IMG/VR virus record: IMGVR_UViG_3300009008_000308
Coordinates: 1 to 20,038 of that record
Origin: a virus
DNA: 20,038 nucleotides
Direction: 5' to 3' (one strand)
Shown here piece by piece: positions 2,164 to 18,269 of this stretch; positions within the stretch are counted from its first letter, which is position 1; every line of letters starts with the position of its first letter. The position numbers and the translations under genes are program-made. The notes under the pieces are model-generated. The model made no database searches. It was not told where the DNA came from and saw only the letters and a list, made by a program, of their open reading frames with translations.

Positions 2164-3576
2164 CTATAGAATCAAAGTAAAAATATTACTTCCACAACCA
2201 TTTATTTTAAAGACTTTTCTTTCTTTGGCTATTTCTTTTTCAGACTTGCCATTTTTTGCCCTAAACTGGAACCTGTCATATCGAACTTTTCCGTCTGTGT
2301 ACCAATAATCAGGGCCGGTATCTTTTTTGAACTCAAATCCGGCGGTGAGATATCCGTCGCCATTTCCAAATCTTAGGTCGGCATAAGTTACAATACCTGT
2401 GTAGTTCTCAGACTTGGCCCAGATTGATGCTTTCTTAAGAAGCCTAGTTAACCCACCTGTCACGTTTGTATTGATCTTAGACGCAAATCTGGAGATCTCT
2501 GTCATACCTTTATACTTCCCGTGTCGAGGGCGTCTCAGTGACAGACAGAGAACCAGTTCACTTCTATAAAATAATCCGAATCTTATTGTTGACGGAACAT
2601 ACCCAGAAATGTGATTTCTTTCGAAGAACTCTTTAGCTTCTTTTACTTTTACTTCTCTGATTTCACATTTTCTTGCAAATATCTTTTGATCAATTAAGCC
2701 TAATCGATTTTTAATCATTGACTTGCAAATTTCTTTTTTATGAATCCACTCATCGCTGAAAATATGAATTAAGTTTATTCCTTTTTTCTTGGCGTCAAGC
2801 TTTTTATTTAGATAGTATCTTCTATTTTTGATTCCATCGTTTAGAATTCCGTGAAAGTATAGACCGTTGTGCTCAATGGCAAGATTTTTGGATGGGACAA
2901 ATACGTCAATTTCTTTTGGTGAAAGAACAGATCGGTCATTGTATTCTACATTTTCTCCGAGTGATTCTATGAATTTACCAATTTCTTTTTCAGCTTGCGA
3001 GGTTCCTACCGGATTACAAGCCGGGCAGAGTGATCCTCTTTCAAATGCTTGTAATGTTTTTTTGGATACTTCGTTGCATTTCTTGCATTTAAATTCTAAA
3101 TACTGACTTTGACGAGAGAAATAGTCATCATAGCTTGTTAGTAGCTCAAATTCTTCTTCTCTATCTTTTATTCTGTTCTCAAACTCAAACCGTGAAACAA
3201 TCTTTGTGAATCGCATTTTATTTATTGATTCATCTGTGTGTCTTTTTCCAAAGAATGGATTACCTTTGCCAGACATTTTGACGGATTGTTCTTGTATTCT
3301 ACTATCTGTTTCTTTTGTCTTTCCTTTGTTCCACGCCTGGGCTTTTCCGCCTTCTTTTCCGGCGATTGACGAGGCAACTTTTGAACAGTTCTTGCAGAAT
3401 CTTTTGAATCTATAAGCTACGTATCTGGTTTCTTCTCCGCAATTTTCGCATTGAGGTTGAGATCCATTGTAGAAATAATTGATTGTGTATTGTCTAGAAT
3501 TCATCTTATGCTCTTTTCGAACATGATTGGAAAACTTTTTGCCTTCGGCTTCGTGACTACATATTTGACATATCAT
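2164..3576 (-). CDS. Free-standing composite homing endonuclease (zinc finger, NUMOD3, EDxHD/Vsr-like nuclease, GNAT-like C terminus)
   Basis: 470 residues. The N terminus has a C2H2 zinc finger of the MucR/Ros style (C3, C6, H18, H23). Two further Cys pairs follow (C43/C46, C61/C64). A NUMOD3-type DNA-binding motif lies around 103-121 (GKGNPFFGKRHTDESINKM), then a third Cys set (C164/C167, C184/C187). Residues about 193-295 form a Vsr-like nuclease of the EDxHD family: KEIDVFVP (222-228), AIEHNG (233-238), and IHIFSDEW (270-277) with D275. The C-terminal 160 residues (RNHISGYVPSTIRFGLFY, then EISRFA) resemble the GNAT-like domain often fused to these enzymes. Upstream the ribosome binding site is weak, but a TATAAT hexamer lies just before the start and after the capsid-gene terminator, so it may have its own promoter. 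Neighbouring genes are intact, so it is free-standing rather than intronic. Its likely job is to cleave DNA at a site in related phages and spread by repair. Confidence 0.85.
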   Translation of the reverse strand: MICQICSHEAEGKKFSNHVRKEHKMNSRQYTINYFYNGSQPQCENCGEETRYVAYRFKRFCKNCSKVASSIAGKEGGKAQAWNKGKTKETDSRIQEQSVKMSGKGNPFFGKRHTDESINKMRFTKIVSRFEFENRIKDREEEFELLTSYDDYFSRQSQYLEFKCKKCNEVSKKTLQAFERGSLCPACNPVGTSQAEKEIGKFIESLGENVEYNDRSVLSPKEIDVFVPSKNLAIEHNGLYFHGILNDGIKNRRYYLNKKLDAKKKGINLIHIFSDEWIHKKEICKSMIKNRLGLIDQKIFARKCEIREVKVKEAKEFFERNHISGYVPSTIRFGLFYRSELVLCLSLRRPRHGKYKGMTEISRFASKINTNVTGGLTRLLKKASIWAKSENYTGIVTYADLRFGNGDGYLTAGFEFKKDTGPDYWYTDGKVRYDRFQFRAKNGKSEKEIAKERKVFKINGCGSNIFTLIL

Positions 3577-3686: not shown

Positions 3687-5642
3687 TTAGATTACGTTTA
3701 GATCTGCAACCGTCACCGTTCCGTAGAAGTCAGCTCGAACCATTTTCTTACCGTAGCGAGTCATAACACCCTTGCGCGGGGTGAAATCCTCTGGTGCGAA
3801 GATTGTAGGAGTAACGATGAGAGGTACGTAAGGAGCATATACGTAGCCAGTCTCAAGGTAGCTGCCGCCCTTATAGCCAACAAGAATCTTGTTGCGTGGG
3901 AAGTAGGGGTCCTTGTAGACTGTGAAGCGGTTGCTCAATGTACCGACCTTCTCAGCGCCAAGACTAAATGGTGTCTTAACCTGACCGTCGCCATCAAGGC
4001 TGATTGATGCACGATAGAGAACAGAAGCCTCAAGCATTGTGCAGACATCAGGTGATGTTACGATGAAGTTAGCAGAACCACGGAGTGTCTTGCGGTGGAT
4101 GGTGTTTGCAACGTCGATGATTGTCTCAGAGAGAGTCTCATACCATTCGCGAACTGTACCTGTGAAGCGTGGGCCTGCTGCGAGTGAATCGCTAAGCTTA
4201 ACTTCAAGGCCTGTTTCCTTGTTGAGGAACTTACCTGGAGCACGTGACCAGTAGAGGTTTGCACCACGAGCCTCTGTAAGGAGGTCGTTTAGAATCTCAC
4301 GGTCAATCTCTAGGGCAACCTGCTCAGAGAGGATCTGTGTTAGCTCAACCTCAGCATCGAGTGAGTGATAAGCGTTAAGATCCTGTGCGAGCTCTGGTGA
4401 CCAGCGAGCACGTAGCTTACGTGTTGCGGCTGTAACTGCGATTGACTCAACCTTGATGTCGATCTCTGGGATGACTGGGGAAGGAGTTGAACCGAAGTCA
4501 GACTCAAATGAAGGAATGGTAAGGGTTGAACCAGAACCGCTCTCTACATCTAAAGAGTCACCAACTGCACATGACATTGTCAAGAAGTTATTTGCTGCGC
4601 CGGCTGCGCTACCACCTTGATATGCACCTGAAACGACGACTAGCAATGCTGCATTAGTAGTTGAAGTTGTTACAAGCGGATTAGATGTCCATGTGTTGTT
4701 AGAGTTATCGAATGTACCAATCTGGTTCAAACGACGAAGGTTGAGGATGTTTCCGCCGCCCTGCCACTCGTCACCGAATGACTTGAGACCGGTCTTGCCG
4801 GAGCCGTGACCATCGCGCTGAGCAGAGAATAGTGAAATATCCTTTACGTTAGTAAGGTCAGCTTTGTCCCAAATGCTGTTTGTAATATCAAGAACAACAA
4901 ACTGGAAACGTCCGTCGTTAATGCCCGCTGCATCACCCTCGATCTTTGAAAGAACCTGCGGGTCAAACTGTAGAAGCTTGGCATCTGAACCTGTTGCGTG
5001 ACAAAGAGCAGGTGCTGCAGTTGTTGCATCAGTTAGTGAAGCATTTGATCCGAATGATCCAGAGAAAAGAACAAGTGCAGGAGCAACTGCTGAAGAACTG
5101 TGGACCTTAGAGTAGGAAGCACCTACCAAGTCATATTGTCCGCCGGCGGCTGTAGATCCTGAACGTACACCCTTACCTGTTGGGTTGTTATAAATTGATT
5201 GTCCACGCTTAAATGTTTGAGCGTCATTGGTTGATCCTGCATCACCTGTTGAAAGTGAAGAGTCACCACCGACGTTTGAACCGTAGGTATAATCAAGATA
5301 GAAGAGCAGTCCAGAAGGAAGGCTCATTGGCTGGATTGATACCAGCTCGTTTGCGACTAGTCCACCGAATACACGACGAACGATTGGGAATGCGATGTTA
5401 GAAAAACCGCGAAGATCACCTGAAGCTGATCCTGCACCGCCACCTGTACCAACAGAGCTTTGCTCTCTTAGTAGCTCTGCAGTCTGGTTCTCAAGCAAGC
5501 GAGCCATGTTCTCTCGCTTTGTTGCTTCCAGCCCACGTAGGAGTCCTGTGCGTGACCACTTCTCGACCAATCGGGAATTTTCCTCACCCATATGACGTGA
5601 GCGAATTCCTTCTGCTAGCACGTCTAGTGAAAACTTAGACAT
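3687..5642 (-). CDS. 23: Major capsid protein, T4 gp23-like
   Basis: 651 residues, larger than T4 gp23 (521). Residues 1-60 form a charged helical propeptide; LLRE (57-60) before Gln61 fits the T4 protease rule (I/L)-x-E, at almost the same place as the T4 cut after residue 65. Mature sequence then shows the family landmarks FPIVRRVFGGLVANELVSIQ and PMSLPSGLLFYLDYTYG. The C terminus carries APYVPLIVTPTIF, a MTRYGKK segment and VRADFYGTV, also typical. The extra length lies in a Gly/Ser/Ala/Thr-rich middle (about 120-390), probably an enlarged surface insertion domain. A clean AAGGAGA site lies six bases before the ATG, the scaffold gene ends 30 bases upstream, and a strong terminator follows, all consistent with very high late expression. 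The protein assembles the prohead shell on the gp22-like scaffold and is cleaved by the gp21-like protease. Family assignment is firm. Confidence 0.95.
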   Translation of the reverse strand: MSKFSLDVLAEGIRSRHMGEENSRLVEKWSRTGLLRGLEATKRENMARLLENQTAELLREQSSVGTGGGAGSASGDLRGFSNIAFPIVRRVFGGLVANELVSIQPMSLPSGLLFYLDYTYGSNVGGDSSLSTGDAGSTNDAQTFKRGQSIYNNPTGKGVRSGSTAAGGQYDLVGASYSKVHSSSAVAPALVLFSGSFGSNASLTDATTAAPALCHATGSDAKLLQFDPQVLSKIEGDAAGINDGRFQFVVLDITNSIWDKADLTNVKDISLFSAQRDGHGSGKTGLKSFGDEWQGGGNILNLRRLNQIGTFDNSNNTWTSNPLVTTSTTNAALLVVVSGAYQGGSAAGAANNFLTMSCAVGDSLDVESGSGSTLTIPSFESDFGSTPSPVIPEIDIKVESIAVTAATRKLRARWSPELAQDLNAYHSLDAEVELTQILSEQVALEIDREILNDLLTEARGANLYWSRAPGKFLNKETGLEVKLSDSLAAGPRFTGTVREWYETLSETIIDVANTIHRKTLRGSANFIVTSPDVCTMLEASVLYRASISLDGDGQVKTPFSLGAEKVGTLSNRFTVYKDPYFPRNKILVGYKGGSYLETGYVYAPYVPLIVTPTIFAPEDFTPRKGVMTRYGKKMVRADFYGTVTVADLNVI

Positions 5643-5672: not shown

Positions 5673-7118
5673 TTACTTTATGCCTGCGAGCAATGCCCAA
5701 CGTCCAGCTTCTTTGGATTCGTTAAGGTTCATTGATGCAGACTTGGTTGGACGACTTGCGCCGCCGATATTGCGAGAGGAAGTTTTATCCTCAGCGCGTC
5801 TACTAAATGACTCTGTAAGAGTCTTAAATAGAAGCTTTACCTCTCGCAAGCTTGCAGCATCGTCGAGTGTCTCTATCGCCTGGGCACGCTGGCCTTGGTT
5901 TAGTTCACTATTCATTAGCAGCTTATTGGTGTAGAGCAGCTTCGCATTAAACAAGTTCATTTCAGCAAGTTGAGCTTTAAGCTCTGTTACTGCCTCTTCA
6001 TACTTGTCTAGCTTTTCACGTAATGCGTCATTTTGCTCATCGGCGACGGGCATTGTTGTGTCAGTTTCTTCATTAATATTAGTTTCGGTATCTTCGGAAG
6101 TATTCATAAGATTAGCTAGCTCTTCGCGCAGCATGTTCTCGTCAATTTCAAGAACTGTGTCATCACTTAGTGACTCCATCATATCTTCTTCTTCCTCTTC
6201 GTCGAGGGCCGCGACTGCCTCAAGATCTTCCTCTTCTTCAAGAACATCTTCTGCTTCCTCCTCGTCGAGTTCCATAACTAGTGCGTCGAGGTCAAGTTCC
6301 TCTTCCTCTTCTAGCTCCTCTTCCTCGACCTCTTCCTCGTCAGAAACTTCAAGATCATCTGATTCTTCATCAGAGAGCTCTTCATCTCCCTCTTCTGCTT
6401 CCTCTTCTACCTCTGGAAGTCTAACTTCAACATCCTCAGGTGCGTCAACATCTCCGAGGTCTAATTCGATAGTTATAACTTCCTCAGATAGGAGGTCTTT
6501 AAGTGATCTCTTCATTTCTTTAATCTCCTTTTTAAAATCTGTGATTTGATCTTGTGAACTTTTAATAGCATGCTCGAATATATCCATGCTATCTGTAGTC
6601 TCCATTTCTTCTGTTAGTTTGTTTACTGCCTTGTCGGAAATAGCAACAAGCGCAATATATTTCTGTAGTTCTTTTTCATCTAAGCTAGCCGGATTAATTG
6701 TTCGTATATTTCCAAGCATTTCATTTAATGCATCAATATATTCGTTACATTCTTTGACTTTATTTGCAGTAAATAAAATTTTAGACTCTTTAGTTTCAGC
6801 TTCGCTAATATTTGAATCGTCTATCTCGTTACTACTGTCATTATCTATATCCTGCTTTTCTTCAAGAAGATGCTTAAGTTCTTCAACAGACTCAGGTGTA
6901 AGATCAAATTCTTGGCTAGCATCATTGTCTGTCTTGGGCATAGAATCTTCAATAATAGAATTATCGTCTTCTAAGTCCTCACCCAGGATTTGCGATTCTA
7001 TTAACTCTCTAATTTGAGGAGTTATAGACTCAATAATTGCATTTTTTGCATTTTGCTCCGCAATTTCACGGAGCTGTTTTGCATCGGCAATGGCTTGTTC
7101 ATAAAGATTACTTGACAT
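5673..7118 (-). CDS. 22: Prohead scaffold / core protein, T4 gp22-like
   Basis: 481 residues from the ATG at 7118, chosen because AGGTGG lies seven bases upstream; a GTG at 7136 would add six residues with no ribosome binding site. The N terminus (MSSNLYEQAIADAKQLREIA) is a helix also seen at the start of other gp22-like scaffolds. Residues about 236-345 are an extreme acidic tract of Glu and Asp. A coiled-coil segment follows (about 365-435: LDKYEEAVTELKAQLAEMN onward), and a short conserved tail ends AGRWALLAGIK, probably the capsid-binding end. Many (L/I)-x-E sites would let the gp21-like protease chop it into small acidic peptides that leave the head or remain as internal peptides. It lies directly upstream of the capsid gene, the T4 order 21-22-23 with extra genes inserted between 21 and 22. 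The protein is nearly twice as long as T4 gp22 (269), mostly because of the acidic tract. Confidence 0.85.
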   Translation of the reverse strand: MSSNLYEQAIADAKQLREIAEQNAKNAIIESITPQIRELIESQILGEDLEDDNSIIEDSMPKTDNDASQEFDLTPESVEELKHLLEEKQDIDNDSSNEIDDSNISEAETKESKILFTANKVKECNEYIDALNEMLGNIRTINPASLDEKELQKYIALVAISDKAVNKLTEEMETTDSMDIFEHAIKSSQDQITDFKKEIKEMKRSLKDLLSEEVITIELDLGDVDAPEDVEVRLPEVEEEAEEGDEELSDEESDDLEVSDEEEVEEEELEEEEELDLDALVMELDEEEAEDVLEEEEDLEAVAALDEEEEEDMMESLSDDTVLEIDENMLREELANLMNTSEDTETNINEETDTTMPVADEQNDALREKLDKYEEAVTELKAQLAEMNLFNAKLLYTNKLLMNSELNQGQRAQAIETLDDAASLREVKLLFKTLTESFSRRAEDKTSSRNIGGASRPTKSASMNLNESKEAGRWALLAGIK

Positions 7119-7171: not shown

Positions 7172-7411
7172 TTAAGAATCTTTAAGTATTCTTCTTTTTG
7201 CAAGATTCTTTTTTCTTCTTTTGATTTCTGACTTGGAAACAAACCTCGAAAGATATCTTTCTCTTATCTCTTTTTGCAAGCCAGAGTTTTTACACATTCT
7301 CTTAAATCTTGCTACTAATTTATCGGGATGTTCACCATGTTTTGCGCGAACAACAGCCCCATATTCAAAATCTCTTTTTTTATTAAATTTCTTTACCATC
7401 TTCTTCTGCAT
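7172..7411 (-). CDS. rpsU: Phage-encoded ribosomal protein bS21
   Basis: 79 residues (75 if the second ATG at 7399 is used; the latter follows AGAAGAAG, the former has no visible ribosome binding site). After a short basic lead, residues 19-75 align with bacterial bS21: VVRAKHGEHPDKLVARFKRM matches the family pattern of a short strand, an acidic/polar turn, then the helix with RRFKRxC (here RFKRMC, 35-40), followed by a second basic helix with EIRERYLSRF and a Lys/Arg-rich tail (SEIKRRKKNLAKRRI). Cellular bS21 sits on the 30S platform near the 3' end of 16S rRNA and aids initiation. bS21 is the ribosomal protein most often found in phage genomes. Here it overlaps the end of the preceding 188-aa gene and lies upstream of scaffold and capsid genes, so it may be made late. 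Likely role: to exchange into host ribosomes and favour phage messages; this is inferred. Confidence 0.85.
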   Translation of the reverse strand: MQKKMVKKFNKKRDFEYGAVVRAKHGEHPDKLVARFKRMCKNSGLQKEIRERYLSRFVSKSEIKRRKKNLAKRRILKDS

Positions 7412-7949
7412 ATAGTTTTATAAAATCCACCAAGGAGGGTGGTATTCTTTTGTTGGTTTTTTTTGAGGCAAAAGTTTGAGCTTTTCCGCCAATATTCATT
7501 CCGATCGTTTTGCCGCTCCTTGTTTTGTAAATTCCTGCTCCATTACCCATTGCAGAAAACTTACTGGTGCCACCTAGCGATGTATTACCACTGAGCCCTT
7601 TTACAATATCATTTAATTTTACTTTTTTATTTTGTTCGTACAAATCAAGGCGCGTTGCCCAATTAACAAATGCACCGCGGTCGACCCAGTTACTAGAAAA
7701 TGGATCATTTTTGTGAGCAGGGCCGCCTATTTTAATATTGATCTTTTTCTTTAGTTTTAGAGAAATATCTTCACCATCTTCATCATTGATTTCTTTTGCA
7801 GGTTCGTCATATGGAAAACCGGGGGCTTTTGAAAGTGTTGTTCCAACTGATGGTTTGGTTTTAGCTCTTGATGAGACCGCACCGTAGCTACCTGGTGATT
7901 TTACATCAGATCTCAAAGAAATATATCTTTCATACAAAAATGATGTCAT
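7383..7949 (-). CDS. Unknown 188-aa protein of the capsid gene block
   Basis: I do not recognise this protein. The N-terminal third (MTSFLYERYISLRSDVKSPG) is Ser/Gly/Pro-rich and looks flexible. An acidic patch (INDEDGED) is followed by a basic strand (LKLKKKINIKIGG), then GAFVNWATRLDLYEQNK, a Gly-rich central part with GNGAGIYKTRSGKTIGMNIG, and a helical end (PPSLVDFIKLYAEED). No signal peptide or membrane segment is visible. No Shine-Dalgarno site is seen before the ATG at 7949, and the gene starts nine bases after the stop of its neighbour, so translation may be coupled. Its end overlaps the bS21 gene. Position between protease and scaffold suggests a minor head or internal protein, but nothing in the sequence proves this. 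Confidence 0.75.
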   Translation of the reverse strand: MTSFLYERYISLRSDVKSPGSYGAVSSRAKTKPSVGTTLSKAPGFPYDEPAKEINDEDGEDISLKLKKKINIKIGGPAHKNDPFSSNWVDRGAFVNWATRLDLYEQNKKVKLNDIVKGLSGNTSLGGTSKFSAMGNGAGIYKTRSGKTIGMNIGGKAQTFASKKTNKRIPPSLVDFIKLYAEEDGKEI

Positions 7950-7958
7950 AATAATGCT

Positions 7959-8456
7959 TTAGCTTTGTGGCGAGCTAACTCCCAAACCGTAAGATCCCAT
8001 TCTTAATAATGAAATATCTTGAGAAGTAACTTTTGGATTTTTTAATCCATCTCCAGAAAAGTCGCCGCCGCCCGGCCTATTTGGAATAACAATGTTTTCT
8101 TGTTCACCTGCATCATTTGGTGCAGCAACATTAGGAACATATGGGCTGGCTACTTGATTTCCCTTATTGTCTTTTGATACAGCATTTAAATCTGGTGCGT
8201 CAACAAAATCTCTACTAAATGAATTTAATCCAAACCCGCTTCCTTTTTGGCCTTCTCCAGCAAGAGTACCATCAAGACAAAGATCTTCAAATTTTTGTTT
8301 TACCTCAGCATCTCCTGCTGCAGAATAAATTGGTGACTTGGGAAATGCGTCACGAAGTTGCTCATCATTTCTATTTCCTGGCAAACCTGGATTTTGCGGT
8401 TTGTTAACTTGAAATATATTTCCCATACTTGAGTGCGAAAAATTTGATCCGGCCAT
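7959..8456 (-). CDS. Unknown 165-aa Gly/Asn/Pro-rich protein of the capsid gene block
   Basis: Not recognised. The start ATG at 8456 follows AGGAGA with good spacing. The composition is rich in Gly, Asn, Ser, Pro and Asp with little predicted helix apart from AAGDAEVKQKFEDLCLD near residues 46-62. The C-terminal half has a Gly-rich run (PNRPGGGDFSGDG) and ends LLRMGSYGLGVSSPQS. Such low-complexity, polar sequence without membrane segments suits a minor virion or scaffold-associated protein. It is transcribed with the protease and capsid genes. Its single cysteine and lack of motifs argue against an enzyme. Function unknown. Confidence 0.75.
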   Translation of the reverse strand: MAGSNFSHSSMGNIFQVNKPQNPGLPGNRNDEQLRDAFPKSPIYSAAGDAEVKQKFEDLCLDGTLAGEGQKGSGFGLNSFSRDFVDAPDLNAVSKDNKGNQVASPYVPNVAAPNDAGEQENIVIPNRPGGGDFSGDGLKNPKVTSQDISLLRMGSYGLGVSSPQS

Positions 8457-8500: not shown

Positions 8501-8917
8501 TCAAGATGTTTCATCAAAAGCTAGCATTGCCCAATTTGATGAACCTTCAAATAAATCTGTGGGATTGGAGGCAGCAGCGGCATGTGTTGCACGATCTGCC
8601 CCAGGGGGAACAGGAACTGTTGATGAGTGCTGCAATTGCTCTTGTAGCGTAGTTTTTGCTGTATCTGTAAATATAGATTGCATAATCGGATCTTTAGTAA
8701 TTCCTTCAACAGTGCTGCTAATTTTTTGATCAAGATTTTTATCAAACTTAATTTTATCAAGTGCGCTTGGTCTTGCTGCTCGAGCTCTTTTTTTTGTTTT
8801 TTTAGCTACCGCTCTAGTCTCAGATATGACTTGGGCTTCGCTACCTAACCCTTCTGCTAGTACTTCAAGCAAACATTCTTTAACTAGGTTTTTAAGCTGT
8901 GTTTTAGTAATTTTCAT
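8501..8917 (-). CDS. Small basic protein with MKITK-type N terminus; possible capsid-targeted internal protein
   Basis: 138 residues. It begins MKITKTQLKNLVKECLLEVL then AEGLG, a helical N terminus of a type (MKITKxQLKxLIKE) seen in other marine phage proteins. VLAEG (19-23) fits the gp21 cleavage rule (L-x-E) and also occurs near the N terminus of the capsid protein in this window (8-12). After it comes a strongly basic stretch (AKKTKKRARAARPS), then helices and a polar tail. T4 internal proteins IPI-IPIII have a similar plan: a short N-terminal capsid-targeting peptide cut by gp21, then a basic body packed with DNA. By that analogy this could be a packaged internal protein. The analogy is inference. 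AGGA lies twelve bases before the ATG; no closer ribosome binding site is seen. Confidence 0.75.
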   Translation of the reverse strand: MKITKTQLKNLVKECLLEVLAEGLGSEAQVISETRAVAKKTKKRARAARPSALDKIKFDKNLDQKISSTVEGITKDPIMQSIFTDTAKTTLQEQLQHSSTVPVPPGADRATHAAAASNPTDLFEGSSNWAMLAFDETS

Positions 8918-8931
8918 TATAGTTTTATTTC

Positions 8932-9384
8932 CTAACCTACACCATCATACTCTGACGAACCTGTCAAAACTGGAAATTGTCTATGATTTATTGGTGAAAG
9001 CCCGGCAAAAATTGAAAATCCACTATTGACGGCGCCATCTCTTCTGAAGTAAAGTTCTTTGCATCGTATTTCTAATCTTGGCGTTGTAGATCCGCTAGAT
9101 AGGATAAAATAGTTTTTTCTTTCGGCAGGATTAACATCTTCACCATTTACTTGATTAGAACCCGTAACGCCACCTTTGGCACTTACTCCGTTATCTGTAA
9201 ATCCAATTCTAAGATCATTTCCTGCTGTTTCTTTGACAATAAAAAATCGTGTTGCGCTAGGAAACTTAACTCTAATAGCAGTAGTTCCTACTTCACTTCC
9301 TGCTGACGTTGTTACAAATGGTACAGCAGATAATTGATATGATGCAACATCTGATGGGCCTGCTTGCGGATAATTAAGAGGCAT
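8932..9384 (-). CDS. Probable virion surface / head decoration protein
   Basis: 150 residues; start ATG at 9384 shares its A with the TAA of the protease gene (TAATG), with GGAG seven bases before. The sequence is almost wholly beta-prone: TTAIRVKFPSATRFFIVKET, DLRIGFTDNGV, KNYFILSSGS, PRLEIRCKELYFRRD, GFSIFAGLS and a C-terminal PVLTGSSEYDGVG. Alternating strands with Gly/Asn turns and a NYFIL-to-ELYF core fit a jelly-roll or immunoglobulin-like fold of the type used for decoration proteins. I recall similar proteins in other phage head modules but cannot name a family with certainty. Position next to the prohead protease supports a head role. Confidence 0.7.
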   Translation of the reverse strand: MPLNYPQAGPSDVASYQLSAVPFVTTSAGSEVGTTAIRVKFPSATRFFIVKETAGNDLRIGFTDNGVSAKGGVTGSNQVNGEDVNPAERKNYFILSSGSTTPRLEIRCKELYFRRDGAVNSGFSIFAGLSPINHRQFPVLTGSSEYDGVG

Positions 9385-9998
9385 TATTTATCTCCATTCC
9401 ACTCTAAGATCTTGTTCATCGATCTATTGATTTTATCGTTTTTTCCAAAATATGATTGAACACTCAAAATTTCATCTTGAGAAAGTTCTCTTGCTTCTTT
9501 CATAACAAAGGCTCCTGGCGTTGATGGCTCAGAAACGATATCCCAACAAATAAGCTGGAAGTCATCTTGCACTACTTGATGTCCTCCCTGTGTTTTTGTT
9601 GATCCCACTCCTCGAGATGAAATACCGATTTTGACACCAGATTCAACTAGGCTTTTGAGTATTTTTCCTGCGGGTGTATCTAATACTTCAAGCGTCCCAA
9701 GGCATACATCGCCCTCCATATGCGCCTCTCTAATGATATGAGAAACATTTTTGAGTTCGACAACAGAGGTATCAGGATGATCAAGTTCTCCGAGGGCACG
9801 ACCTTCTTCAATAAATCTTTGATAGTTTCTAACTTCTCGTGCCAAAACTGCTAGCGGATAAACTCTTCCGTTTTGATTTAATGTGTCAGCTTTTTGGAGT
9901 ATTCCTTTCATAAGAAATTTTCCATCGCTTCTTTCATCTTGTTCTTTAACTAATTGAGAATTATACTCAAAAGGTATATATTCAGCTAAGAGTTTCAT
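9384..9998 (-). CDS. 21: Prohead core protease, T4 gp21-like
   Basis: 204 residues, close to T4 gp21 (212). The serine protease of the herpesvirus-assemblin-like fold (prohead protease family) is recognised from GELDHP (70-75, catalytic His74) and GISSRGVGS (125-133, catalytic Ser127 or Ser128). An Asp-containing WDIVSEPST follows (152-160), and KGILQKADTLNQNGRVYP (31-48) is the conserved N-terminal region. It cleaves the scaffold, the capsid protein and internal proteins at (I/L)-x-E sites once the prohead is built, and then itself. Its start overlaps the preceding gene by four bases (ATGA), with AGGAG eight bases upstream. The order portal, unknown, protease matches T4 portal, 67/68, 21. 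Confidence 0.93.
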   Translation of the reverse strand: MKLLAEYIPFEYNSQLVKEQDERSDGKFLMKGILQKADTLNQNGRVYPLAVLAREVRNYQRFIEEGRALGELDHPDTSVVELKNVSHIIREAHMEGDVCLGTLEVLDTPAGKILKSLVESGVKIGISSRGVGSTKTQGGHQVVQDDFQLICWDIVSEPSTPGAFVMKEARELSQDEILSVQSYFGKNDKINRSMNKILEWNGDK

Positions 9999-10828
9999 TC
10001 TTTAACTCCTTTTAAATTTTCATTAAGTTCAACAACTTCAAGCGCCTTTGAGACAACACTGTCAGTTAAGTCATCAACATTAAGATCTTTAATGTTTTCT
10101 ATTACACCTTTTGCTCTTTTGATAAAGTAGTCATTTTGTGTATCGGCATACTCTTCCAAAGATTTTGCTGTTGACTCACAAATTAAATTAATTTTTTGAC
10201 AAAGAACTTCTTTATTTTCTTCAATTGCGTATAGATTAATAATTTCAGATTGAAGACTATTAAGATTAGACTCATATTTTCTTTTTAGCTTATCAGTAGC
10301 AACTTTCACTACTAAGCTATCAATATCTGGATTAACTTCTTCTGATTTTATTTCTTCTTTTTCTCGAGATAGAGATTCGAAAATTAGTTTTTCATACTTT
10401 ACGACAGTGTTGACGTCTAAATCTTTTTCTTGACGCCAGTATTTGATAAGCATTGATGCAGTAGCGTAAGATTTATATTGAGGAACTGACTCTGTGTATA
10501 CAGCTTGCTGGCCAAATGTATGATTTATTTCTTTTATTAGATTGTCTTTTTCAATCTTTAGTGCCTTTGAATCAAATCTTAAGGCAGCATTTCTTGCTTC
10601 TTGCAAAACAGCAGATGCAACTACTTCAGATCCTACAGGAACATTTACCATAGCATTAATTAGTCTATACTCCTTGTGAAGCTCTGTCCCAGCAGCAAAA
10701 TACTTTTTAATAATAGATTTAGAAATATTTGCATTTGTATTATCACCCTCAACCAAGGAACGAGATATTTTTCTTATTAAAAACTCGTATAAGAGTCCAG
10801 AGTTTCTTTTTTTATTATGTCTTGCCAT
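9995..10828 (-). CDS. Unknown 277-aa helical protein in the gp67/gp68 (prohead core) position
   Basis: Start taken as ATG at 10828 (MARHNKKRNSGLLYEFLIRK) because AGGGAG lies six bases before it; a TTG 15 bases further upstream overlaps that site and is unlikely. The protein is almost all helical and highly charged, with coiled-coil-like stretches (about 155-275). A recognisable opening NKKRNSGLLYEFLIRKISRS is probably the conserved part. There is no enzymatic motif. It overlaps the portal end by 14 bases and the protease start by 4. In T4 the genes between portal and protease encode prohead core proteins gp67 and gp68, so a role in core assembly is a reasonable positional guess, not a homology claim. 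Confidence 0.75.
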   Translation of the reverse strand: MARHNKKRNSGLLYEFLIRKISRSLVEGDNTNANISKSIIKKYFAAGTELHKEYRLINAMVNVPVGSEVVASAVLQEARNAALRFDSKALKIEKDNLIKEINHTFGQQAVYTESVPQYKSYATASMLIKYWRQEKDLDVNTVVKYEKLIFESLSREKEEIKSEEVNPDIDSLVVKVATDKLKRKYESNLNSLQSEIINLYAIEENKEVLCQKINLICESTAKSLEEYADTQNDYFIKRAKGVIENIKDLNVDDLTDSVVSKALEVVELNENLKGVKE

Positions 10829-12701
10829 TAATATCTCCCTCAACGAGTAAAGCAGAAGACTTGTCTATATTACCTATGCTTTTCTCAAGACTTTTTATTG
10901 TTTGTTTAAGCTGTGAATTCATTTGATTCTGGACCTGTGTTTGATTTTCAAATCTCAAAGCTGTCCCAAGAACAACCTCTCTATCATCAACAGCATTATT
11001 AGTATATCTTTCTTTTCTTGGAGTCGTTGTTCTAGTTCCTAAGTGAAATGATCTTTGATCAAACGGTCCAGATTTTCTAGGTAGGCTTCCTGGCTTTCTT
11101 TTTCCAGCAGCATTTTTCACAGTTGAGCTTGGCTTAATTGAAGAGTCAGATTGATTTTTCTCTTTTTCTGGTTCGGGATTATCTGTCCCGAGAAGCAGAT
11201 TATCATCTTTTTTAATTTCTCCTGCCTCAAGCTCCTCTTCTCCAGTCGCTGGGGATTCTTCGCCCGCAGGTTCTTCAAAGCCAGGTACCCCGTGACCTTC
11301 TTCTCCGCCTAAAGTGATTGCCTCAACTTCAAGATCGCGAAGTTTATCTTCTTCTCTTTGCTTTTCAACTAGTTCAATTTCTTCATTTGTCATCCCTAAG
11401 ACTTTTTTACGAAGATAATCTCTTGAAAGCATTCCTTCGGGTGATTGTCCAGCAATCTCAAATTTAGTTCTAAAAAGTTCAAGTTTTTGTTGCTGTGCAA
11501 TTGTTGACGGATTAGAAAGCTTAAGTGAAAAATCGATTAAATCATCACCATCAAATCCGCAAGAGTATAAGTGAATTGCAGCAATTTTATTAAGCTCAGA
11601 TATAAGAACTCTTTGAATTTTGTTAATAGTTCTTGAGAATCTAATATCCTCTTGTGCAAGAGTTGCCTTGCTAGATAGTGCCTCATCATAACCCAGGTAT
11701 GCTTTTGGAACCTTGAGAGCAGCAAATAATTTCTTTTGAATATATTCAACGTCTTCAATAGCAGTCGTATTTGTTCCTCCTGCTAAAGTATCAATTGCTG
11801 TTCCATCACCCTGGCCACGAACTGGAAGAAAATAATCTTCATCAACACTGAGCGGGTTATATCTCAAATCGACGCGTCCGGTTTTCTTATCAATAACTTG
11901 ATTGCTTCGAAGAGCAGACTTTGCTTGTTGCATATATGTTTCTACATCTTCGGGCGGAACGTTCCCTACGTCAATTTTGAATACTCTTCGTTCAGGTGAT
12001 CGGATCACTCTGTATACAAGCATTGCATCTTCAATGAGAATAAGTTGGCGCCAAATTCGTCGAGCTGGTTCAATAACTGATGAACCGTATGGAAGAAATG
12101 CGTCGTTTCCCAGAAGCCTAAAATGTGCGATCTGCCAGTTTTCTAGAACTCTGTTTCCTTGTGTAATCCACCGAAAGCGCACTGCCATTGGATCTTCTGG
12201 ATCAAATCCTTCTTCTCTTTCAATTTCATTGACAGGAACAGGAATCCCGTTCATTACGCCGTCTTCTGGAGAGATATCAAGGAATAAAAAGAAATCTCCA
12301 TACTTACAAAGATTTCTAACCCAGGGATTTAAATTGAAGTCAACATTAAGATTATCATAAAATAACTCTTCTAATGTTTTTCTAATCTTATCATTCTCAG
12401 AATAAATATGAAGAGATCGACCTGTCTCATCTTGTGAGCAGGATTCATCGGCGTAGATATCTAGTGCACTCGAAAGTTCAGGTGTTGCTTCCATTTCTTG
12501 GAAATCTGCATATCGAGACATTCTATCGTACATTCCGTATGCACTAATAGCATTTGAATATACGTGACTCTGCGATTTTTGAAACTGCTGCAGTAACGAG
12601 CCCATATTCGGGGCTCGAGTTGCACGAACTTTTCTTTTGATCAGGGGCCCTGATCTAAAAAGTCTCGTTAGTCTGTTGAAAAAATTATCGTTGTCGGCCA
12701 T
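10815..12701 (-). CDS. 20: Portal protein, T4 gp20-like
   Basis: 628 residues, about 100 longer than T4 gp20 (524). The family core is clear: ELSSALDIYADESCSQDETG, then NVDFNLNPWVRNLCKYGDFF, EDAMLVYRVIRSPERRVFKI, DVGNVPPEDVETYM, DEDYFLPVRGQGDGTAIDTL and EDVEYIQKKLFAALKVPKAY. These form the stem, wing and clip of the twelve-subunit ring at the head vertex, through which gp17 pumps DNA. The additional length is a polar C-terminal tail (about 460-628) rich in Glu, Lys, Pro and Ser with no motifs, probably disordered. AGGAG lies nine to ten bases before the ATG. The gene directly follows gp17 across a 75-base gap, without the sheath and tube genes found there in T4. Confidence 0.95.
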   Translation of the reverse strand: MADNDNFFNRLTRLFRSGPLIKRKVRATRAPNMGSLLQQFQKSQSHVYSNAISAYGMYDRMSRYADFQEMEATPELSSALDIYADESCSQDETGRSLHIYSENDKIRKTLEELFYDNLNVDFNLNPWVRNLCKYGDFFLFLDISPEDGVMNGIPVPVNEIEREEGFDPEDPMAVRFRWITQGNRVLENWQIAHFRLLGNDAFLPYGSSVIEPARRIWRQLILIEDAMLVYRVIRSPERRVFKIDVGNVPPEDVETYMQQAKSALRSNQVIDKKTGRVDLRYNPLSVDEDYFLPVRGQGDGTAIDTLAGGTNTTAIEDVEYIQKKLFAALKVPKAYLGYDEALSSKATLAQEDIRFSRTINKIQRVLISELNKIAAIHLYSCGFDGDDLIDFSLKLSNPSTIAQQQKLELFRTKFEIAGQSPEGMLSRDYLRKKVLGMTNEEIELVEKQREEDKLRDLEVEAITLGGEEGHGVPGFEEPAGEESPATGEEELEAGEIKKDDNLLLGTDNPEPEKEKNQSDSSIKPSSTVKNAAGKRKPGSLPRKSGPFDQRSFHLGTRTTTPRKERYTNNAVDDREVVLGTALRFENQTQVQNQMNSQLKQTIKSLEKSIGNIDKSSALLVEGDINGKT

Positions 12702-12776: not shown

Positions 12777-14384
12777 CTATTTAAGCAACCAATCATAATC
12801 TCTTGCAGGATTTTTCTTCATTCCTCTACCTCTATACTCCTCTTGCTTTACAGGCTTCCAGGGATTATTTGGAAACGGCGAGGGCGTTTCTTGATTAATA
12901 ATAGGGTCTGCAGACGTTGTATCTCTTGACATTGCTGCTAGCATTGCCTTGTTAAGATCTGCATTTGAAGATGTTCCTCCACCATAAATATCAAATAACC
13001 AACCGCCAATTGCAAGACTCATAACTAAGTCATCATGCTGACCTTTCATCGCCTGGGCTTTTTGACCTTTCCATACGAATGTTTTCATTTCTTCATAAAG
13101 ACGCTGGGAATAACTCTTGAGCATCTTATTTCTTATTATCTCTTCTAGCTTTGAGATAATTTGAATTCTTGAATGTCCTTGTGTTGAAAATCCGGGTATT
13201 TCATTCACAGAAGATGGCGTGTAGCCACCCAGATAGCCTCCTGCGGACTTTTGATAAAACATGTTAGGATAATCAAGGTCTTTAAGCTTCATTACCGTTG
13301 TATAGCCAAACGTGTTATTCTCAGGGGCAAGTAAAGCATTGTTATACATACGTCCCACCTCATCAAGCATTTCTCCAAATCTATCTGGGGGCACTTTTCC
13401 TTTATATTCAGCTACGATCTCTGACGTTGTTACGTCTATCACGTGGAATGTTGAATAATCTTTTGCATCACCTCTTGCAACGTCTGCAGACATGACGTAT
13501 TTGTGTGCTGAAAGCGGGAACTCCCAAATCCAGCAATTTCTATCATGAAACTTTCTGTCTCTTGGTGGGCGTATCGACTCTCTCATCCACTCAAGGTGGT
13601 CCATTTGCAAGAATGTCTCACCTGATGCTACAAAGTCACAAAGCAACTCCTGCGCAATTTGACGCTTAGACATGTTTTTAGTCTCAACATCAAACCATTC
13701 TTCGTCTCTTTCTGGGTGTACATGCCAGGGAAGATTAATAGGGTTAAACTTGTTTTCACCCTGGATTGCCTCTGTATAAAGCTTGTGGTATTGACCACCA
13801 ACTCCATTTGGAGTAGATAAAATAATTGCGTCTCCGCCTGTTGATAGTGTAGGATATAAACCCATCCACAAAGTATCAAAGTTTTTAACAAATGCAGCCT
13901 CATCAATGATTAGAAGGGAAAGCGCCTCTGAGCGTCCTGCATCATCTGATGTTGGCACTGCCTTGACAACTGAGCCGTGACTAAATTCGATTGTTTGTTT
14001 GTTGTCACCCGTTACTTGGGGAAGTACGAGCCAAGCTGGTAAAGCACGAAGCATTACTTTTACTTTTTTAATAAAGTTTTGTGCAACGGCGAGTTTTGTT
14101 GCAATAATCAATATGTTCTTATCACGCTGAAAGATAGCCATCCAAAGCGCGTATGCAGCAACTAAAGTTGAGAGCCCAAGCTGTCGAGACTTTAAAACAA
14201 TATTAAATCGATTGTCTTTAAAATCAATTAAACAGTCATCTTGAAATTCATATGTATCAAACGAAACTAGGCCGCGAGTTGCATGCTGGATCTTTACATA
14301 CTTGTTCATAAAGTATCGCGGATCTTTTCCGCAACGAATGATCTCTTTTACTTGTTTTTGCTTGCTAAGTGCCTGTCTCGACAT
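12777..14384 (-). CDS. 17: Large terminase subunit, T4 gp17-like
   Basis: 535 residues (T4 gp17 is 610). ATPase domain: Q motif region around 45-50 (YEFQDD), Walker A KSRQLGLST (65-73), Walker B LLIIDE (157-162, D161 E162) and coupling motif STPNG (190-194). Nuclease domain with RNase H fold: ADVARGDAKDYS (300-311, D301), LAPENNTFG (352-360, E355) and KGQHDDLVMSLA (447-458, D451/D452). Walker A lacks the usual GKT/GKS lysine: position 71 is Leu where T4 has Lys (SRQLGKTT), but K65 opens the motif, as in other deviant terminase P-loops. It pumps DNA through the portal and cuts the concatemer. Its ATG shares a base with the stop of the 143-aa gene (TAATG); only a weak GTGAG is seen upstream, so translational coupling is likely. 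Confidence 0.96.
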   Translation of the reverse strand: MSRQALSKQKQVKEIIRCGKDPRYFMNKYVKIQHATRGLVSFDTYEFQDDCLIDFKDNRFNIVLKSRQLGLSTLVAAYALWMAIFQRDKNILIIATKLAVAQNFIKKVKVMLRALPAWLVLPQVTGDNKQTIEFSHGSVVKAVPTSDDAGRSEALSLLIIDEAAFVKNFDTLWMGLYPTLSTGGDAIILSTPNGVGGQYHKLYTEAIQGENKFNPINLPWHVHPERDEEWFDVETKNMSKRQIAQELLCDFVASGETFLQMDHLEWMRESIRPPRDRKFHDRNCWIWEFPLSAHKYVMSADVARGDAKDYSTFHVIDVTTSEIVAEYKGKVPPDRFGEMLDEVGRMYNNALLAPENNTFGYTTVMKLKDLDYPNMFYQKSAGGYLGGYTPSSVNEIPGFSTQGHSRIQIISKLEEIIRNKMLKSYSQRLYEEMKTFVWKGQKAQAMKGQHDDLVMSLAIGGWLFDIYGGGTSSNADLNKAMLAAMSRDTTSADPIINQETPSPFPNNPWKPVKQEEYRGRGMKKNPARDYDWLLK

Positions 14385-14854: not shown

Positions 14855-15142
14855 TTATAATTTTAATCTAGGGACAATTTTACTTCGCTTTTTTATTTCT
14901 TTTTTTATTATATTCTTATCTGGGCGCCAACCATCTTTCCATTTTTTCTTATTTGGGCCCTCGGCCCAAGTAATCCCACATTCTTGACAGCACTCATATT
15001 CATTCCAGTATTGTGTGTCAGATGATGTTGTCATAAAATACCCACAAACAGGACAGTCAATTGGTTGAATATCTAGATCACTATCTTTAATGATAACAAA
15101 ACCGTCTTTGTGATAAATGACTTCTTTATTCGCATCTGACAT
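14855..15142 (-). CDS. Small zinc-ribbon protein
   Basis: 95 residues. Two Cys pairs, CPVC (30-33) and CCQEC (51-55), form a one-zinc ribbon; the spacing and the WNEYECCQECGITWAEG context resemble zinc-ribbon proteins found in other T4-like phages. The tail is strongly basic (KKKWKDGW then IIKKEIKKRSK), suiting nucleic-acid binding. The start overlaps the 3' end of the Mre11-Rad50-like gene by 17 bases, in another frame, with AAGGA about ten bases before the ATG. It could act with the recombination nuclease or as a transcription-related factor; the sequence does not tell which. Confidence 0.75.
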   Translation of the reverse strand: MSDANKEVIYHKDGFVIIKDSDLDIQPIDCPVCGYFMTTSSDTQYWNEYECCQECGITWAEGPNKKKWKDGWRPDKNIIKKEIKKRSKIVPRLKL

Positions 15143-18100
15143 ATGAGTCTATTCCTTTGCTTCCGATTTCAATGGTTTGATCTACTACGTCTTTTACAGA
15201 GTCTACATGAGTAATTACCAAAATATTTCTAAACCACTTTTTTAATGATATTAAAAGACGATTACATGCCTCAACATTAGTCTCATCAAGTGAACCAAAT
15301 CCTTCATCAATAATGAGCATATCTGTTTTAGGAAGTGAAGATACATTAAGTAGAGCTACTCTCATAGCTAGCGATGATATCATCTTTTCCATTCCTGACG
15401 CTAATTCAATAATTCTTTTACTATCACCGTAGTCAATAAAAATTTCTAAAGCATTCGAATCAGAATCAGCCTCAAGCTTGACAGTAAAATCTGCAACATT
15501 ACTTAGAATCTTTTCAATCTCTATATTGATTACTGGTAGTTGCATTCTAATTATTTGCGTCGGTATTCCTTTTTTAGACCACGCCTTCATTAAAAAGTCA
15601 TAAATCTTCCAGGATTTACGTAGTTCTGCAAAGGAATCTCTTTCATTCTGGTGCTTCTTTATTTGGCTATCTGTATTTCCCTTCATTTCTGCTGCGGAAA
15701 TCCTCTGTGCGTCCTTCTGTTTAATCTGGGCACCAATCTCAGCTAATTTATTTTTAATCTTTCTAGCAGCAACTGTTAAATTTGTCGTATTTAGTCTAAG
15801 CTTCATTTCCGCTAAAACTTTTTTACATCGAATCATGTGATCTTTCGAGGTATCTAGATCTCGTGAATAAAGATCAAACTCAGATTGCTTTCTTGATAAG
15901 TCTACTTCGGAATCTGCAAGACGCCTAAGAAGCGTATCGTATTTGTCAATTTTTTCTTTTAGATTTTGATCCGAAAGTTTTTTAACAGTGCGCCTGATTG
16001 CCCGAACCTCAGAAGATAAATTGCTTACAATCTCTTTTTGCATCTCAATTAGATTCTTGTTTTTGTGTGAGTCTTTAATAAACTTGCATTTTGGAAATTT
16101 AACACCACACGGAACTTCATCAAGAATTTTTACAGATCTACTCTGGCTTTTAAGAAGTTGACTGGCAACTTCTTTTTGATGCTCAAGTGACGTTAGTGAT
16201 CGTTCAAGATCTTGCAGGCTTTCATATTGAACTCTAATTTCTGAGATTGGAAATTGCTCTTTTACTGCCTCAATTGTCTCGATTTGTTCACTAATCTTTT
16301 CAATTTCATCTATGCACTTATTAGATTTCTTTGTCAAGATATCAAACTTCTCTTTTGCTTTTCTTAGCTCATCTTTTTGCTCTTCTACATCTTGCGGATC
16401 AACTAGATCGTCCTCAGTGAAATTGCTTAATTGAATCTGGATTTTTTGTTGTGCTTCTCTAAGCTCTGCAAGATCATGCTCAATTTCTAAAATTTGTGCA
16501 TCATATTTCCTGCGATTATTTCGAAGTGTAACAATTGCTGCGTTCCAATCTCGTTCTGGATAATTGCTCATCTTTCCTTTGATTGATGCTGCATCTCTCT
16601 TAACGAACTCTGACATTCTTTCAAAAATATCTAAATCGAGGAACTTAGAAAGGATAGTTTTTCGATGTGATGTTCCGTGACTAATAAACTGATTCATGCT
16701 TCCTTGTGTTGCAAGCGATGTAACAAGGAAGTCATCAGCGGTTCCCAACATTTTTCTAATTGTCTTCTCAGTTTGTGTTCTTTGTTCGCCATTTAAGTCT
16801 TGAACAATATTGCCCATTGGATCAACTTGATAAAAGTTTAAAGAAGTTATAGCAGATACGTGCCCTTTTTTATCTTCTCTTCTCACGCTTTGACGTTCGA
16901 CAACATATTTTTTATTATTTGCTGTTAGATATAGCTTGGTATTGCAGTGACCTTTTCGACTATTGATAATATGAAGATTTTTGATAGATCCTCGGTCAGT
17001 TGTATTAAATAAGCCATATGCTAAAGTGCCTACGATAGATGACTTACCGCTTCTGTTTCGCCCTAAGATTCCAGTAATGCCGCTAAGGCTGTCGAAATTA
17101 ATTCGATTCCCTTTTGTATATGAAAACATATTGTCAAATTCAATATCATTGATAGACCACTTGACATTTCGTGCAATATCTTCATCTTGTGTTGCAAGTG
17201 AAATATAACGATTAACGAACTTAGATATCTCTTCCCACTCTTCTTCATCAAATGCTTCGGGTGATGCATAGTCCTCAAGAATCTTAATCTGAACTTTGGG
17301 ATCTCTAAGATCTTCTTTTTTGATTAATGTGTCATTATCAATGATATCATTTGATGCAACACCCTGGTCGAACTTCCAAACAACTTCTTTTGCATTTCTA
17401 GAAACTTTAAGCTCATTATGAATTTGCTTAATTTCAAGCTGCGGAATATTTTCGGTTGTTCTAATTCTGAATCGTGAACCGTTCTTGAACTTTTTAGCTT
17501 CATGAAGCGTGTCTTGAACTGTCCCTTGCCAGTCAACTGTTACAAACGGGTGTGGGTTAACTAAGCGGTGAAATGAGACGTCGAAATCATCTTTAGTTCT
17601 AATATCCCAAAACACAAACCCTTTGTCTGGATCTTCCCCGTGGTTCTGCTGTACACTCGACCCTGGATAAATTATCGTCTTCTTTTTATTTAAGATCTGG
17701 AACTTGTGAATATCACCCAGAAGGGCGAAATCATAGTCGTCAAAGAAAGATACTTTGACTTCTCCGTCAAGCTCCCAGTTCTGATCTGTTTTTGAGCCAA
17801 CAACGCAGCCATGGAATGTTGCAAGATTTACTTCGCCCTCTACGGGTTTGACGTCCTTCCAACCTTTTTCATCAAAGCAAGAAAACACACACCAGTTATA
17901 TCCTGGAATCCCAGTCGGGTATGTCCCCGACTGTTTATAAAGATATGCATCCGCATGATTTAGCGCATTGAAAATCGGAGTAATAGCATCCTGACGTTGA
18001 TCGTTTATCATGTTGCCATCATGATTACCTAAGATCATATGCAAAGGGGCAACGTCAGCGAGTGACTTCATCCAGTATGTTAGCTCATCGATAAGCTCTG

Positions 18101-18269
18101 GGGACATCCCTTGTGTCTTTGTGTGATAGATATCCCCGCCTACATATATAAGGTCAGGCTTAAGCTCCTGGCACTGGAGAATGAAATCCTGGAATACCTG
18201 GCGATACTCCTGGTGTCGAGATAGACTTCTAAAGTGAACGTCTGCTATATGTGCTATTTTAATTGTCAT
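15126..18269 (-). CDS. Fused recombination nuclease-ATPase: Mre11/SbcD (gp47) plus Rad50/SbcC (gp46) in one polypeptide
   Basis: 1047 residues. N-terminal metallophosphoesterase: DVH (10-12), GGD (44-46), GNHD (81-84), H153 and GDIH (185-188), the Mre11/SbcD two-metal set. A capping/linker region runs to about 380. The Rad50/SbcC ATPase half follows: Walker A GRNRSGKSS (403-411), Q-loop QGSMNQF further on, long coiled coils (about 560-900) interrupted by a hook with C721 and C728, then LASGMEKM (956-963, in the signature-motif position) and Walker B MLIIDEGFGSLDE (984-996), with ITHVD near the end. T4 encodes these as two proteins, gp47 (about 340) and gp46 (about 560), a complex that resects ends for recombination-dependent replication. 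Here one reading frame covers both with no stop or frameshift. The order (nuclease first) follows the adjacent T4 order 47-46. It lies just after the primase gene and ends overlapping the zinc-ribbon gene. Confidence 0.93.
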   Translation of the reverse strand: MTIKIAHIADVHFRSLSRHQEYRQVFQDFILQCQELKPDLIYVGGDIYHTKTQGMSPELIDELTYWMKSLADVAPLHMILGNHDGNMINDQRQDAITPIFNALNHADAYLYKQSGTYPTGIPGYNWCVFSCFDEKGWKDVKPVEGEVNLATFHGCVVGSKTDQNWELDGEVKVSFFDDYDFALLGDIHKFQILNKKKTIIYPGSSVQQNHGEDPDKGFVFWDIRTKDDFDVSFHRLVNPHPFVTVDWQGTVQDTLHEAKKFKNGSRFRIRTTENIPQLEIKQIHNELKVSRNAKEVVWKFDQGVASNDIIDNDTLIKKEDLRDPKVQIKILEDYASPEAFDEEEWEEISKFVNRYISLATQDEDIARNVKWSINDIEFDNMFSYTKGNRINFDSLSGITGILGRNRSGKSSIVGTLAYGLFNTTDRGSIKNLHIINSRKGHCNTKLYLTANNKKYVVERQSVRREDKKGHVSAITSLNFYQVDPMGNIVQDLNGEQRTQTEKTIRKMLGTADDFLVTSLATQGSMNQFISHGTSHRKTILSKFLDLDIFERMSEFVKRDAASIKGKMSNYPERDWNAAIVTLRNNRRKYDAQILEIEHDLAELREAQQKIQIQLSNFTEDDLVDPQDVEEQKDELRKAKEKFDILTKKSNKCIDEIEKISEQIETIEAVKEQFPISEIRVQYESLQDLERSLTSLEHQKEVASQLLKSQSRSVKILDEVPCGVKFPKCKFIKDSHKNKNLIEMQKEIVSNLSSEVRAIRRTVKKLSDQNLKEKIDKYDTLLRRLADSEVDLSRKQSEFDLYSRDLDTSKDHMIRCKKVLAEMKLRLNTTNLTVAARKIKNKLAEIGAQIKQKDAQRISAAEMKGNTDSQIKKHQNERDSFAELRKSWKIYDFLMKAWSKKGIPTQIIRMQLPVINIEIEKILSNVADFTVKLEADSDSNALEIFIDYGDSKRIIELASGMEKMISSLAMRVALLNVSSLPKTDMLIIDEGFGSLDETNVEACNRLLISLKKWFRNILVITHVDSVKDVVDQTIEIGSKGIDSYVRCE

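Follow-up and report, generated by a model that had tools for sequence, protein, structure and literature searches.

A gene for ribosomal protein bS21 lying inside the capsid gene block of a phage raises the question of what that protein does for the phage, and why it is encoded there. Among the ribosomal proteins reported from phages bS21 is the commonest, and its benefit is unproven. Here we analyze one such gene in a window of 20,038 nucleotides, the whole stretch of DNA under study (positions 1 to 20,038 of IMG/VR record IMGVR_UViG_3300009008_000308). The features on which the argument draws all lie on the minus strand:

12777..14384 (-), terminase large subunit (TerL); PHROG 2, 41-44% identity to cultured phages
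10815..12701 (-), portal protein, gp20-like; PHROG 213, E 5.9e-72
9384..9998 (-), prohead core protease, gp21-like; PF03420 E 8.5e-25, PHROG 207
8932..9384 (-), 150-aa conserved head-module gene, from gene-order comparison of relatives
8501..8917 (-), 138-aa conserved head-module gene, from the same comparison
7959..8456 (-), 165-aa conserved head-module gene, from the same comparison
7383..7949 (-), 188-aa gene, conserved directly ahead of the bS21 slot, with a relative detected in 77 loci
7172..7411 (-), gene for phage bS21, 79 aa, or 75 aa with ATG 7399 as the true start; PF01165, PDB bS21 matches, model helices and syntenic relatives
7397..7399 (-), alternative bS21 start, an ATG (first base 7399) at the position where, by alignment, close relatives start
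5673..7118 (-), candidate for the prohead core (scaffold) gene, rich in Asp/Glu, by position and composition only; 481 aa from ATG 7118, SD AGGTGG
3687..5642 (-), major capsid protein (MCP), gp23-like; PHROG 138, E 2.3e-71

A preliminary description of this DNA had proposed that positions 7172-7411 encode bS21 and that the product keeps the RFKRMC helix and the basic second helix of that protein, and both proposals hold. Residues 21-75 match Ribosomal_S21 (PF01165) with 29 bits (E 8.6e-7), above the gathering cut-off of 27; solved bS21 chains are matched at E 5.6e-4 by the single sequence and at values as low as 3e-10 by a phage-family profile; and the protein shows both RFKRMC and the basic C-terminal helix. 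The profile check against the bS21 family that had been suggested also included TIGR00030, for which the 79-aa ORF scores 26.5 bits, just under the curated cut-off of 28.95, and because of this score we class the predicted product as a bS21 homologue rather than a proven functional equivalog. Searching PHROGs with the protein gave no match, and neither did tblastn against phage records at E 0.01. An AlphaFold model built from 18 phage homologues places helices at residues 29-43, 45-55 and 60-78, as expected for bS21, with a mean pLDDT of 78.6 and a poorly ordered N-terminus. The top PDB structure match of the model is E. coli bS21, at weak values (E 0.17, probability 0.93, TM 0.45-0.60); small helical proteins usually give weak structure-match statistics. 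The protein is basic (28 K/R versus 8 D/E in 79 residues), contains no F, W, Y or H in residues 58-79, and carries ahead of the bS21 domain an N-terminal extension of ~16-20 residues that is rich in basic residues. The bS21 proteins of a sister group (L023:7983-8288, L024:16938-17246, L025:16969-17307) have a longer, strongly basic extension of ~25-45 residues.

The surroundings of the gene are those of a T4-like head module, with portal, S77 core protease, gp23-type MCP and TerL ordered on a single strand. In the direction of transcription the genes run TerL, portal, a 282-aa gene, protease, the 150-, 138-, 165- and 188-aa genes, bS21, the acidic core candidate and MCP. The earlier placement of bS21 among head genes and directly before scaffold and capsid is therefore confirmed, since the core candidate (ATG 7118) comes next downstream and is followed by MCP. 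Neither the 188-aa gene nor the core candidate matches any family in Pfam or PHROG. Elsewhere in the window, a homing endonuclease-like gene (2164-3576, minus strand) lies directly 3' of the MCP gene, with a PHROG 3339 match at E 5.6e-86, a NUMOD3 motif and a Mom-like C-terminal match. A single 1047-aa ORF at 15126-18269 (minus strand) contains both a Metallophos domain (SbcD/gp47-like, residues 3-189) and an SbcC/gp46-like ATPase (AAA_23, residues 377-652; PHROG 77), and we annotate its predicted product as a fused recombination nuclease-ATPase.

Whether the gene is a stable component of this module can be judged from relatives, which were recruited from viral contigs through TerL (29 loci) and protease (80 loci), bS21 not being used for recruitment. 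An iterated profile was applied to 104 loci and located bS21 in 38, several of these being overlapping or near-copies, and in 38/38 it lies on the head-gene strand. Once reduced to distinct relatives, 27 of 58 carry bS21, in exactly the slot and strand of the window, and the bS21-free ones show unchanged gene order with the slot empty. The order protease-150-138-165-188-[bS21]-core-MCP is maintained across relatives, some small genes being undetected in some loci. Where bS21 is absent, the core gene follows the 188-aa gene after 12-193 nt, and no recognisable diverged bS21 was found in the gap. Mapped on a four-head-gene tree of the 58 distinct relatives, presence and absence of bS21 require six changes, counted without assigning gain or loss, versus ~19 when labels are shuffled. 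Distances between bS21 proteins correlate with head-gene distances, with a Mantel r of 0.88 for the whole set, 0.94 within the window clade and 0.72 outside it, and dN/dS is 0.08-0.16 for unsaturated pairs. Since divergence tracks the head genes and dN/dS is ~0.1, these comparisons indicate that the gene is under purifying selection, functional and, for the most part, passed on along with the head module; its persistence in dozens of relatives at such dN/dS likewise excludes a chance ORF.

The start of the gene offers a hint as to how its expression might be set. The preliminary description had noted that bS21 and the 188-aa gene lack a clear Shine-Dalgarno (SD) site, and our analysis agrees. 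The sole pairing 5' of ATG 7411 is GGUGG (-4.9 kcal/mol), ~15 nt away, no SD pairing is found upstream of ATG 7399, and the 188-aa gene likewise has no well-placed SD. The bS21 protein may be 75 aa long, because in alignment close relatives start at the position of the in-frame ATG 7399. Counted from ATG 7411, bS21 shares 29 nt with the 3' end of the 188-aa gene (7383..7411, minus strand), and counted from ATG 7399 it shares 17 nt; the 188-aa gene in turn starts 9 nt past the stop codon of its 165-aa predecessor. Each of the nine members (9/9) of the window clade has a candidate bS21 start inside the final part of the 188-aa gene, with an overlap of ~8 nt or more and SDs that are weak or ill-placed, and in several other clades starts near this junction carry clear SD pairings (about -5.6 to -7.5 kcal/mol). 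Because of the overlap with the upstream gene, the SD-poor start suggests ordinary translational coupling of bS21 to the 188-aa gene, and coupled translation would explain the SD-poor starts of both. The proposal that these starts mark a different initiation mode or autoregulation is weakened by the overlap, by the SDs at this junction in other clades and by the result that comparison of relatives and a shuffle test revealed no conserved regulatory RNA upstream of bS21. Just 5' of bS21, a hairpin CCACC-CUCCUU-GGUGG (7427-7442, minus strand) has a loop that resembles the anti-SD; it was rejected as a regulatory element, being not conserved in relatives and lying in a region that folds no more stably than shuffled sequences (z -1.0). 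The sequence AAAACTATA occurs just 5' of bS21 (7411), the 138-aa gene (8917), MCP (5642) and one more start in the 63-kb contig that contains the window, with 5 plus-strand copies in total; its absence from the corresponding sites of close relatives led us to discard it as a promoter.

To relate the gene to the initiation signals of the phage, SD use was scored as anti-SD pairing of at least 4.4 kcal/mol at first-ATG starts, a crude way of calling starts, on a 62,966-base contig that contains the window at 99.985% identity. Pairing was found at 67% of first-ATG starts versus 10.6% of internal ATGs, in line with the reliance on AGGAG-type sites described earlier, and the Flavobacterium phage immuto, taken as control, showed 4% at starts versus 17% at controls. 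With SD pairing so far above control, unlike in the Flavobacterium phage, the host is likely an SD user. Assigning the host through bS21 similarity was abandoned when a scan of genome contigs gave only a single, distant Daviesbacteria rpsU, and a search of ten related contigs for psbA found none, leaving a cyanobacterial host unsupported. A 235,681-base relative encodes a tmRNA (L128:14087-14408, plus strand; Rfam RF00023, 137.8 bits; tag ANDDFDIYAIAA), which could give a host clue. The further idea of a specific link between bS21 and messages with SD/AGGAG sites was not supported: in the head region, SD use amounts to 62% in relatives with bS21 and 59% in those without it (p 0.31). By these counts SD use does not go with the presence of bS21, which counts against a role specific to SD-bearing messages.

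Several known systems resemble this locus in part. The cultured Microcystis phage Mel-JY01 (PP395634.1), whose TerL is 44% identical to that of the window, has a T4-like head module with an annotated RpsU between protease and core/capsid genes on the head-gene strand; that RpsU, however, is only 28% identical to the window protein, its start has a AAAAGGAC site upstream, unlike that of the window gene, and the small genes between protease and RpsU differ. Pelagibacter phage HTVC008M and other pelagimyophages are myophages that also encode bS21 (PMC6375957, PMC7029224), but their S21 lies outside any specific gene cluster (PMC7029224), unlike the slot-fixed gene studied here. The rpS21 of huge phages (PMC7162821, 2020) shares a basic N-terminal extension before the bS21 domain, that of the window protein being only ~16-20 residues. 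The presence of bS21 among head genes is already described (Chen 2022, Mizuno 2019, Mel-JY01), and the window locus differs from the Chen group in strand, SD use and the lack of the aromatic residue, not in kind.

The freshwater Bacteroidetes phages of Chen et al. 2022, for which late-stage ribosome takeover by bS21 was proposed (PMC9723584), bear most directly on alternative readings. Their bS21 is only a few genes away from TerL, portal, protease and MCP, and this similar neighbourhood, together with a TerL 41% identical to that of Flavobacterium phage immuto, could place the window phage among them, with its bS21 keeping the anti-SD sequestered. We consider this highly improbable. Their bS21 points the opposite way from the structural genes, whereas in the window and all relatives found it shares the strand of those genes; the slot in immuto itself has no bS21; and immuto does not show the strong SD use of the window phage. 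Moreover, the Tyr54 that helps block the anti-SD in F. johnsoniae bS21 (Bacteroidota) corresponds to an aromatic residue in the Chen phages, whereas positions 58-79 of the window protein hold none and the Tyr54 neighbourhood aligns with Lys/Arg (F. johnsoniae sequence corrected against 7JIL).

Only a little less improbable is that the bS21 fold has been co-opted for a small basic protein of the head core or virion interior, one that has ceased to act on ribosomes or that is injected with the DNA. The strict position beside an acidic core gene and the excess of basic residues (28 K/R to 8 D/E in 79) would suit such a protein, and PMC9723584 considered that bS21 might be packaged in virions; against this, the RFKR helix of the ribosomal protein and its basic C-terminal motif are conserved in the window clade, and some relatives with a complete head module have no bS21. 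A more serious competitor, to which we would give perhaps one chance in a few, is that the phage protein merely replenishes bS21 on incompletely assembled or depleted host ribosomes, raising overall initiation without preference for phage messages. The lack of relation between bS21 presence and SD use agrees with this, but the divergent, extended N-terminus suggests more than a copy of the host protein, such extensions having been proposed to aid ribosome competition or the choice of phage mRNA (PMC7162821).

The reading that we favor, with a probability of roughly 0.6, is that of a genuine phage bS21 in a T4-like head block, probably in an SD-using host, that is coupled to the 188-aa gene, made together with head proteins and acts on the host 30S to keep or bias late initiation. 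Translation of bS21 would probably be coupled to that of the 188-aa gene, and its product would be made alongside head proteins; it would then join host 30S subunits in which bS21 is missing, or oust the host protein, occupying the platform by the 16S 3' end, where it may keep or bias initiation on late phage messages. To family, slot, purifying selection, head-module inheritance and phage SD use, for which sequences provide the evidence, this reading adds late expression, incorporation into host ribosomes and a direction of mRNA bias, which we infer. In its favor, bS21 of lake phages is transcribed together with structural genes (PMC9723584), and HTVC008M bS21 enters E. coli 70S ribosomes (PMC6375957; Mizuno 2019); a ribosomal role for the window protein is plausible. 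Counting against it are the absence of bS21 from about half of the relatives, the equal SD content with and without it, the sub-cut-off TIGR00030 score and the GFP yield of E. coli ribosomes with HTVC008M bS21, only ~5% of wild type (PMC6375957).

Extended to the relatives, this reading becomes a speculative one that we hold to be rather unlikely as a whole: the bS21-bearing phages would form a broad T4-like lineage of SD-using hosts, with a slot-fixed and largely vertical bS21 that acts on late initiation by a route independent of SD strength and is dosed through coupling to the 188-aa gene. The lineage has head modules that otherwise match but carry or lack bS21 in one slot, and hence offers a natural contrast for the study of bS21 function, and it separates the question of how bS21 benefits a phage from the Bacteroidota model of anti-SD sequestration.
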